Assembly (NCBI GenBank): GCA_031274765.1
Contig: JAISPR010000019.1
Span: forward strand, 1 to 32,657
Reading direction: 5' to 3'
DNA: 32,657 bases
Source of the DNA: Nitrososphaerota archaeon
GTDB lineage: Archaea > Thermoproteota > Bathyarchaeia > Bathyarchaeales > Bathycorpusculaceae
In this document: positions 18,676 to 26,503 of the stretch, in pieces
How the letters are laid out: each line of letters starts with the position of its first letter
How positions within the stretch are numbered: position 1 is the first letter of the stretch
Position numbers and translations under genes: made by a program
Notes under the pieces: model-generated
Seen by the model: the letters and a program-made list of their open reading frames with translations, nothing else
Databases searched by the model: none
What the model was told of the DNA's origin: nothing

Positions 18676-19383
18676 ATGGACGGATATGGATCACAATTAC
18701 CCCAGTTACCACAAATCCCACAAATCCCACTCATGCCGTTGGTGCAAACACAAGAACAGCCGCCACAGGGCAATCAAGCACCACAGGGTGGCGGATGGAT
18801 GCCTGGTGCCACCACCGTTGGGATTACCTTCCAAGGCGGGGTTCTTTTAGCCGCTGAAAAACGTGTTACATACGGCAATTTTATCATGAGTCGAGGCGGA
18901 AAAAAAGTATTTAAAGTTACAGATCGCATTGGCGTAGCCTGTGCAGGTCTCGTTGGAGACATGCAAATACTTGCCCGTGAAATGGAAGCACAAGCCAATC
19001 TCTACAGCATGGACGTCGGGCGCCCCATCAACGTACGTAGCGCCTCCAAACTCTTGGCAAACGTACTCTTCAACCGTCGCTATGCCCCCCTCATAACCCA
19101 GACCATCGTAGGCGGTTTAGATGAAGAAGGATCATCAATTTATGTCCTTGATCTCTTGGGTTCACTTATCCCCGACAAGTATGCAGCAGTAGGCTCTGGC
19201 ACAGAAACCGCCATTGGTGTCATCGAAGAAGGCTACAAAGATAACCTAACATTAGACGAAGCCAAAAACCTCGTTACCCGTGCAGTTAAAGCCGCCATCA
19301 GTAGAGACGCTATGAGTGGTGATGGCTTAGATTTTGTCATTATCACCAAAGACGGTGTCATCGAAGAATCCACAAAATTCTAA
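18676..19383 (+). CDS. psmB: 20S proteasome beta subunit with Ala in place of catalytic Thr1
   Basis: The 235-residue protein is an unmistakable 20S beta subunit (GGKKVFKV, CAGLVGDMQ, AAVGSGTETAIGVIE, SGDGLDFVII). The expected processing site G-TTTVGI reads G-ATTVGI (G44, A45): the residue that should be the N-terminal nucleophile is alanine, while position 17 is Glu (E61) and Lys33 is kept (K77). Beta subunits of this kind are known in Crenarchaeota, where an inactive-looking paralogue works with a second, catalytic beta subunit; none is in this window. The N-terminal extension of about 44 residues is unusually long and Pro/Gln-rich (repeats of LPQ/IPQ). Start at ATG 18676 is favoured over the TTG at 18646 by the TATA box position. 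AMMECR1 follows 56 bp downstream. Confidence 0.93.
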   Translation: MDGYGSQLPQLPQIPQIPLMPLVQTQEQPPQGNQAPQGGGWMPGATTVGITFQGGVLLAAEKRVTYGNFIMSRGGKKVFKVTDRIGVACAGLVGDMQILAREMEAQANLYSMDVGRPINVRSASKLLANVLFNRRYAPLITQTIVGGLDEEGSSIYVLDLLGSLIPDKYAAVGSGTETAIGVIEEGYKDNLTLDEAKNLVTRAVKAAISRDAMSGDGLDFVIITKDGVIEESTKF

Positions 19384-19439: not shown

Positions 19440-20063
19440 ATGTTGTTTGAACTCTCACAACAAGAAGGCGAATCCATAGTTCACTTAGCCAGAAACACTG
19501 TTAAATTCTTCTTAGAAAAAAACAAACGACAACCGCCAAAAGACCTCTCTCCCAAGTTGCTTGAAAAATGTGGTGCATTTGTCACCATAAACACCCTAAC
19601 TGATGGCAAACAAGAATTGCGCGGATGTATTGGCTACCCCTATCCCACAAATCCACTGGTAGACGCCATTATCGATTCCGCAATAAATGCTGCCACAAAA
19701 GATCCTCGCTTCGAACCCCTGACCATTGACGAACTTGACAAAGTGATTTTTGAAGTCAGCGTCTTAACACCACCGGAACTGATCCAAACTGATAATCCCA
19801 AAGAATACGTGCACAAGATCAAAGTAGGCGAAGACGGATTAATCATCGGGCACGGCTGGCATAAAGGGCTACTTTTGCCACAGGTACCCCTCGAGTGGGG
19901 TTGGGATGAAGAAGAATTCCTTTGCCAATGTTGTGTGAAAGCCGGGTTGCCGCCTGACAGATGGCTCACCAAAGACGTTAAAATCTACAAATTTAAAGCC
20001 ATAATCTTTGAAGAAGAAACCCCAAACGGGGGCATTAAACGTTTAAACCTCAAATCCGTCTAA
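19440..20063 (+). CDS. AMMECR1 domain protein
   Basis: A 207-residue member of the AMMECR1 family, conserved across archaea and eukaryotes; the family hallmark LRGCIGYP (60-67) is present, followed by the typical AAINAATKDPRF-like segment (here INAATKDPRFEPLT) and FEVSVLTPPE. The C-terminal part has GLLLPQVPLEWGWDEEEFL and a paired Cys-Cys in LCQCCVKAGL. Biochemical role is not established; a role as a cofactor or radical chemistry partner has been suggested for relatives and is not testable here. ATG 19440 has GAGG upstream. It lies 56 bp downstream of psmB and may share its transcript. It overlaps the convergent glycosyltransferase end by four bases. Confidence 0.92.
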   Translation: MLFELSQQEGESIVHLARNTVKFFLEKNKRQPPKDLSPKLLEKCGAFVTINTLTDGKQELRGCIGYPYPTNPLVDAIIDSAINAATKDPRFEPLTIDELDKVIFEVSVLTPPELIQTDNPKEYVHKIKVGEDGLIIGHGWHKGLLLPQVPLEWGWDEEEFLCQCCVKAGLPPDRWLTKDVKIYKFKAIIFEEETPNGGIKRLNLKSV

Positions 20064-24744: not shown

Positions 24745-24764
24745 CTTTGGATGCAGATAAAAAT

Positions 24765-25847
24765 ATGTATCCCTGTATAGTTGAGAATCTAATGGTCAAA
24801 TTTGAGGATTTGGGTGGCAAATACTGCCTTGGCATAGAATCTTCAGCAGACGACTTTGGTGTTGGTGTTGTAGATTTTACTGGTGAAATTCTGGCGAATC
24901 AATCTGATAGCTATATCCCTATTGAGGGTGGTATTCATCCAAGAGAAGCGGCTCGGCATCATGCTGATGTTGCTGATAGTGTATTAGGGCAAGCTCTAAG
25001 CAAAGCCGCTCTAAAAGCCAAAGAGTTAACCTGTATTGCCTTTTCGCAGGGACCTGGTTTAGGGCCCAGTCTTCGTACAGGTGCCACCATTGCACGTGCT
25101 TTAGCGGCATATCTTGAGATTCCCCTTGTTGGTGTTAATCATTCGATCGCTCATATCGAAATCGGTAAACTCAAAAGTGGTGCTAAAGACCCCCTTACGC
25201 TATATGTCTCGGGCGGTAACACTCTAGTCACAGCTTACGCGTTGGGGCGTTACCGTATTTTTGGCGAAACGCTTGACATTGCTTTGGGTAATTGTCTGGA
25301 TGTTTTTGGCCGAAAAGCTGGTTTGAAGGGGAAAAAAGGCTTACCCGTGGGTGCTGCTATAGAGCAGCTTGCACATAACAGTCAGCATTTGGTTACTTTG
25401 CCCTATGTGGTAAAGGGTATGGATTTGTCCCTTAGTGGGCTTTTGACGGCGGCGACTACAGTATTACAAAATCAAGTTTGTCCTTCTAAATCGTCTTGCC
25501 AAGATACTTGCCGTTTAGAGGATGTGTGTTACAGTCTCCAAGAGCATGCTTTCTCGATGGTTACTGAAGTCACTGAACGTGCATTGGTACACACTGAGAA
25601 AAAAGAGTTGCTATTAACAGGTGGAGTGGCCGCAAATAAGAGGCTCCAATCAATGATGGCCTTTATTGCAAAAGAGCATGATGCCCAGTTTAATGTGGTT
25701 CCCCAACAATACGCAACCGATAACGGTGCTATGATAGCCTGGACTGGAACCTTAGCATACAGATACGGTTTGGTTATCCCTATTGCTGAGAGCATGGTGA
25801 AACGACGTTGGCGGGTAGACAAGGTGGATGTGCCATGGATACAGTAG
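24765..25847 (+). CDS. kae1: KEOPS subunit Kae1 (tRNA N6-threonylcarbamoyladenosine synthase)
   Basis: Kae1 transfers threonylcarbamoyl from TC-AMP to A37 of ANN-decoding tRNA, with Bud32 and Pcc1, both encoded in this window. Motifs: LGIESSADDFGVG (22-34), HPREAARHHAD (58-68), the metal site NHSIAHIEIG (H125 and H129), YVSGGNT, LSGLLTAATT and the last ligand Asp in TDNGAMIAWTG. Oddity: between LLTAATT and LEDVCYSLQE lies an insertion with CPSKSSCQDTC, so several cysteines that relatives lack could bind a metal. Length is 360 residues. ATG 24765 is preferred; ATG 24792 is possible. Its stop lies inside the bud32 frame (12-base overlap). Confidence 0.95.
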   Translation: MYPCIVENLMVKFEDLGGKYCLGIESSADDFGVGVVDFTGEILANQSDSYIPIEGGIHPREAARHHADVADSVLGQALSKAALKAKELTCIAFSQGPGLGPSLRTGATIARALAAYLEIPLVGVNHSIAHIEIGKLKSGAKDPLTLYVSGGNTLVTAYALGRYRIFGETLDIALGNCLDVFGRKAGLKGKKGLPVGAAIEQLAHNSQHLVTLPYVVKGMDLSLSGLLTAATTVLQNQVCPSKSSCQDTCRLEDVCYSLQEHAFSMVTEVTERALVHTEKKELLLTGGVAANKRLQSMMAFIAKEHDAQFNVVPQQYATDNGAMIAWTGTLAYRYGLVIPIAESMVKRRWRVDKVDVPWIQ

Positions 25848-26503
25848 ACAAAATTCCCCAAATTCGTTTGCTCAAAAAAGGTGCAGAGGCCAGTCTCTTT
25901 CGTACGCAGTGGTGTGGTCGAGATGTAGTTGTCAAAGTTCGCATTCCCAAAAAATATCGTCCTGTGGTATTGGACCAGCAGATTCGTAACTATCGTACTG
26001 TCCATGAGCCGCAGTTGATGCATGATGCAAAAGTTTCAGGTGTGCCGACTCCCCTGATTTATCTAATTAACGTTCCAGAATCAACCATTATCATGCAATA
26101 CATCAAAGGTCAACCTGTAAAGTCTCAACTTAACAAACTCGACAAACTAAATCGACATATCTCATGTGTCCAAATCGGCGAATCCATAGCGTGTCTTCAC
26201 AGACACGGTTTAATCCATGGTGATCTTACCACATCAAACATGATACAAGCTATAAGCGGGCGAATCTATTTCATAGACTTTGGTCTGGGTGAAAAAAACA
26301 TGGAGCTTGAAGCCCAAGGCGTTGATTTACATTTGTTTAAACGGGCACTCCAGAGTACACATTTTGAATTTTGGGAAGACTGTTTTACGAGTGTGATGTA
26401 TGGATATGCCTCGATTAGAGGTGTCCAGATGACTCAAAAGGTTTATGAGAAAATTCGCCAGATAGAGAAGCGAGGACGTTATGTTGAAGAACGCAGACCT
26501 TGA
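25835..26503 (+). CDS. bud32: KEOPS subunit Bud32, small atypical kinase
   Basis: The 222-residue protein is a minimal RIO-like/Bud32 kinase or ATPase. Motifs: KKGAEASLFR in the N-lobe, K34 in VVVKVRIPK, HGDLTTSNMI (128-137) with catalytic D130 and N135, and FIDFGLGE with metal-binding D148. There is no activation loop or C-terminal kinase lobe beyond this, as usual. Bud32 stimulates Kae1, dissociating products through ATP hydrolysis. ATG 25835 lies inside the end of kae1; the upstream in-frame TTG or GTG would overlap further. It overlaps rdgB by 23 bases. In some archaea kae1 and bud32 are fused; here they are adjacent genes. Confidence 0.95.
   Translation: MDTVDKIPQIRLLKKGAEASLFRTQWCGRDVVVKVRIPKKYRPVVLDQQIRNYRTVHEPQLMHDAKVSGVPTPLIYLINVPESTIIMQYIKGQPVKSQLNKLDKLNRHISCVQIGESIACLHRHGLIHGDLTTSNMIQAISGRIYFIDFGLGEKNMELEAQGVDLHLFKRALQSTHFEFWEDCFTSVMYGYASIRGVQMTQKVYEKIRQIEKRGRYVEERRP

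Follow-up and report, generated by a model that had tools for sequence, protein, structure and literature searches.

The gene at positions 18676–19383 of the window—that is, of the whole stretch of 32,657 nucleotides that was analysed—very probably encodes a proteasomal beta subunit that has a structural rather than a catalytic role in a mixed beta ring. In the plus-strand translation (235 aa in total) the segment GGGWMPG is followed by ATTVGITFQGGVLLAAEKRVTYGNFIMSRGGKK, and the processing-site register accordingly reads P-G44, then A45-T46-T47-V48-G49, with Gly44 at position -1 and Ala45 at position 1. The alanine in the place of Thr1, which the original prediction had pointed out, is thus exact, being encoded by GCC within an otherwise complete beta subunit; and the assignment of Glu61 and Lys77 to positions 17 and 33 was borne out by the alignment with the solved archaeal beta subunits, which register is gap-free. 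The features are as follows, the counts referring to 150 orthologue rows and 38 catalytic rows:

18676..19383, plus strand: very probable structural beta subunit of the proteasome, non-catalytic and 235 aa long (TIGR03634, 231.9 bits; PF00227, E 9.5e-54; 6z46, Saci0662, ranks first among the solved relatives and also among the fold matches)
18676..18807, plus strand: Pro/Gln-rich leader, spanning residues 1-44 and ending with Gly(-1), predicted to be disordered (residues 1-43 with pLDDT < 50)
18808..18810, plus strand: Ala45, in the place of the catalytic Thr1 (codon GCC; all 150 orthologue rows have Ala, Gly, or Ser here, and all 38 catalytic ones have Thr)
18811..18813, plus strand: Thr46, position 2, common to active and inactive subunits (T 149, S 1 of 150; T in 38/38 catalytic rows, and also in alpha and human beta6)
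18856..18858, plus strand: Glu61, position 17 (E 145, D 5 of 150)
18862..18864, plus strand: Arg63, position 19 (no variation in 150 rows)
18904..18906, plus strand: Lys77, position 33 (K 150/150)
19195..19197, plus strand: Ser174, equivalent of Ser129 (S 118, T 31, N 1 of 150)
19306..19308, plus strand: Asp211, equivalent of Asp166 (D 150/150)
19315..19317, plus strand: Ser214, equivalent of Ser169 (S 149, T 1 of 150)

The score obtained in the profile search against TIGR03634 (archaeal beta) lies above the cut-off of 224, the passing of which evidently needs no Thr1. Of the residues that define an archaeal catalytic beta subunit, the Thr1 after Gly(-1) is replaced by Ala45 in this product, and both the Asp/Glu17 and the Lys33 are present as Glu61 and Lys77. 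The ATG at 18676 is likely to be the start codon, since an in-frame ATG (M[DE]...) stands at the matching place in all 28 full-length copies of the genus.

The 150 distinct orthologue rows brought together the order-level orthologues and those from named genome contigs and from genomes taken across the phylum, and were typed by whole-protein BLAST score, independently of the residue at position 1. That residue was Ala in 140 rows, Gly in nine, Ser in one, and Thr in none. Within the same order, position 1 was Ala in 51/51 distinct orthologues; position 2 was Thr in 50 and Ser in one; and Gly(-1), Glu17, Arg19, Lys33, Gly47, Asp166, and Ser169 were invariant, with the catalytic paralogues of that order carrying both Thr1 and Asp17 in 36/36 instances. 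Eighteen of the 185 core columns were conserved at 99% or above, positions 2, 19, 33, 47, 166, and 169 among these. The dN/dS ratios against genus relatives, at 0.02–0.07, denote strong purifying selection, and the gene was found in 23/23 genus genomes of the best completeness class. The protein of Ca. B. termitum is 96% identical over the domain, and the named relatives put the window in Bathyarchaeia, near Candidatus Bathycorpusculum. That Ala45 arose from a sequencing error (an ACN misread as GCN, which eventuality the original prediction had itself raised), or that the gene is a decaying pseudogene, is a reading of negligible probability for which we found no support and which we rejected on the residues of the relatives and the dN/dS values: the same alanine recurs in every order-level orthologue, the dN/dS ratios are low, all genus genomes of the best completeness class carry the gene, and a misread codon is ruled out by the uniform occurrence of Ala, Gly, or Ser throughout the 150 rows.

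In a FastTree phylogeny of 108 proteins, repeated after the removal of the trait columns, the 38 Thr1 sequences formed one exclusive group (support 0.913; 0.886 without the trait columns), and all 67 non-Thr betas fell outside that group in both instances. The window beta was placed on the Saci0662 side, apart from the catalytic betas, the non-Thr side being weakly supported as a clade (0.26; 0.11 without the trait columns, human beta6 then falling inside). Because of that weak support, a single early loss of Thr1 would be the simplest reading, and a likely one, but is not proven. The gene neighbourhood is conserved across relatives as well, the foremost neighbour being the following gene:

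19440..20063, plus strand: AMMECR1-domain gene, the conserved downstream neighbour (context, outside the subunit; PF01871, E 9.6e-56)

This gene lay beside the beta gene in 45 of the 52 relative loci examined, one locus (L052) holding another beta type. Elsewhere in the window, at 24747–26503, TsaD-like and RIO/Bud32-like genes (KEOPS components) overlap in tandem, which arrangement is ordinary for archaea.

Of the two options in the original prediction, a catalytic partner elsewhere in the genome or a non-proteolytic assembly, the former was borne out. The own genome (2.5 Mb, approximately 96% complete) contains exactly three PF00227 genes: the window beta; a beta on contig C78 with KG followed by TTTIGV and with Thr1, Asp17, and Lys33, and thus of the catalytic type; and an alpha on contig C118, adjoining a gene that we named SBDS-like from a reading of the neighbour's sequence. 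No further proteasome-fold gene was found in that genome with the alpha protein as the query at E values up to 10; four PAC2 genes are also present. In a sample of 24 genomes from across the phylum, 23 had both beta types as whole genes, and the remaining one (G037) had the catalytic gene along with broken fragments. The seeming absence of the gene from G037, G008, and G022, where the matches are only partial, looks like the result of contig breaks, and no match of the window beta type was obtained in two less complete genomes, G002 (88% complete) and G030 (60%). In some genomes of the order (L052, at 3250 on the minus strand, L087, L088, L089, L090, and L091) we observed a further Thr1 beta paralogue (TTTVxxKCxDGV...LPGxVAHKxxKK), additional to the usual catalytic and non-catalytic types and having Asn166 and Thr169 where those positions were read out (L052, L087). 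A second, diverged alpha subunit also seems to be present in many genus members (e.g., L086, at 3312 on the plus strand), the window's own genome not being among them. As to the PAN ATPase, no protein reached the TIGR01242 cut-off in the 41 class genomes searched, the own genome included; the best matches were Cdc48-type double AAA proteins, of which the own Cdc48 (G000:C94, L278) ends in ...KPATPVA, without an HbYX motif.

Among the solved structures, 6z46 lies nearest in both sequence and fold; it is that of the inert 20S particle which Saci0662 and alpha of Sulfolobus acidocaldarius form. In that organism Saci0662 builds the cylinder and the second beta confers the activity: Saci0662 and alpha form a 28-mer devoid of activity, and co-expression with Saci0909, which is incorporated at a lower ratio, renders the particle active (PMC4569737). 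From the analogy we infer that the complex of Bathyarchaeia behaves as does the Sulfolobus one in its assembly on alpha, its inertness, and its acquisition of activity through a second beta. The window subunit would accordingly dock on the alpha ring and fill most of the inner-ring positions, and the Thr1 beta of contig C78 would occupy the remaining ones and supply the proteolysis, in which stoichiometry we follow the Sulfolobus example. A quite improbable alternative is that alpha and the window subunit on their own constitute a separate, non-proteolytic cage—one, for example, sequestering proteins, or a reserve activated when the catalytic beta is added. Such a cage would agree with the stable and inert 28-mer that Saci0662 forms with alpha alone (PMC4569737) and with the location of the two beta genes on separate contigs, where they may be regulated apart; but the catalytic partner has been kept in the genomes checked, and in Sulfolobus the catalytic beta enters the same ring.

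The Sulfolobus particle also bears on the question of whether Thr46 might be the true nucleophile after the removal of Ala45 by a protease—perhaps by the active beta itself—and then work with Glu61 and Lys77. The near-invariance of position 2, together with the retention of positions 17, 33, 166, and 169, would fit that proposal; but Thr2 is equally present in the active betas, in alpha, and in human beta6, which has Gly1, so that this threonine is kept regardless of catalysis. Equivalent T1 residues have been claimed for both of the Sulfolobus beta subunits, and a particle with truncated Saci0662 was found to assemble and to be inactive (PMC4569737). The beta chain of 6z46 begins M-T-A-I-G, and the genome encoding a protein 100% identical to it (L286) reads L-P-A-T-A-I-G, the native position 1 therefore being Ala and the first Thr of the chain Thr2. 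The 6z46 chain may correspond to the truncated construct of PMC4569737 with its initiator Met removed, as usually happens before Thr; if so, Thr2 has already been tried as the nucleophile, and gave no activity. We consequently rejected Thr46 as the nucleophile, which role—foreseen in the original prediction as a ground for refutation—we consider very improbable, on the strength of these construct data, the identity of the construct being deduced from the chain, and of the fact that alpha and inactive subunits keep Thr2 as well. The 'equivalent threonine' of Saci0662 is apparently Thr2, with the published T1 assignment one residue off, and the suggested correction of the register would explain why exposing that threonine gave no activity.

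The propeptide, which had been described as about 44 residues long and rich in Pro and Gln, is in fact 44 aa with 43% Pro+Gln. In 28/28 full-length genus copies the leaders measure 32–49 aa (median 45), with a mean of 41% Pro+Gln, and the sister genera and other families have mostly short leaders; a Pro/Gln-rich leader of 32–49 residues is hence a trait of the genus. The case had been called unusual: that holds for this leader, as a character of the genus, whereas the Ala1 is normal in the phylum-wide orthologue group. In the AlphaFold model, of modest confidence (mean pLDDT 73, with one good model of five), the leader is predicted to be disordered. With Ala1 in the place of Thr1 the subunit would be without an N-terminal nucleophile, and its own leader should stay uncleaved by itself; since Ala1 cannot drive a self-cleavage, the removal would need an active subunit acting in trans, a route that has been proposed for the yeast beta6 and beta7 (PMC13022661). 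The leader would point into the chamber and would probably be trimmed in that manner, as in the eukaryotic beta6 and beta7.

The remaining catalytic-site residues are near-invariant though the nucleophile is gone, which degree of retention would seem to exceed the needs of a purely passive scaffold and to that extent speaks against the structural reading. The kept network of positions 17, 19, 33, 129, 166, and 169 most likely serves the ring packing and the ring-to-ring contacts rather than a chemistry of its own. In eukaryotes the C-terminal aspartates of beta3 and beta6 form salt bridges with a conserved arginine of beta5 and beta2, which contacts help the maturation of the active sites as the half-particles join (PMC13022661); by analogy, the conserved Arg19 and Asp166 may play a related part. 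More tentatively still—and we regard this as a doubtful extension—the genus leader may be more than a segment to be removed: because the subunit is unable to cut itself, several disordered tails of 32–49 residues would linger in or near the chamber until the neighbouring active subunits trim them, and might in the meantime act as a timer or filter on access; or, alternatively, the 17/19/33/166/169 network of the dead site might act across the ring interface in switching on the catalytic subunit.

The two-beta design was already known from Sulfolobus; what is new is its presence in the lineage of Bathyarchaeia and throughout the sampled phylum. The 20S design with one structural and one catalytic beta thereby extends from Sulfolobus to Bathyarchaeia and the sampled relatives within the phylum, and this suggests that inactive betas go far back in this branch of the archaea, and that eukaryotes were not alone in inventing them. 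A catalytic site kept in a subunit without a nucleophile poses, moreover, a testable puzzle. Beyond the original prediction, the analysis contributes the suggested register correction for Saci0662, figures for how far the dead site has been retained, and the recognition of the leader as specific to the genus.

Among the known systems, Saci0662 is the nearest: the fold and the sequence are orthologous (approximately 45% identity, top match both ways); Ala1, Thr2, Glu17, Lys33, Ser129, Asp166, and Ser169 are all common to the two proteins; and each genome encodes a distinct Thr1 beta. The two differ in that the Sulfolobus leader is of a few residues only as against the 44, Pro/Gln-rich ones of the window gene, and in that Sulfolobus has PAN, whereas neither the own genome nor the class genomes searched yielded one at the cut-off. 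With the archaeal catalytic betas (Thermoplasma acidophilum 1pma, A. fulgidus 1j2q) the window subunit shares the fold, the ring position, and the catalytic-site residues bar Thr1; but, having Ala there, it would not be expected to process itself and would need a catalytic partner. Pyrococcus furiosus likewise has two archaeal beta genes per genome, beta1 and beta2, one of which is needed for assembly, although in that species both subunits carry the catalytic Thr, T7 and T11 being the residues mutated (PMC3605417). Human beta6 (PSMB1), finally, exhibits the same pattern as the window beta in the positions read from its sequence—Gly1 with Thr2, Asp17, and Lys33 kept, and a leader present—and is likewise inactive within a ring of mixed composition; beta6, however, occupies one fixed place in a ring of seven types, whereas the window beta presumably fills many.
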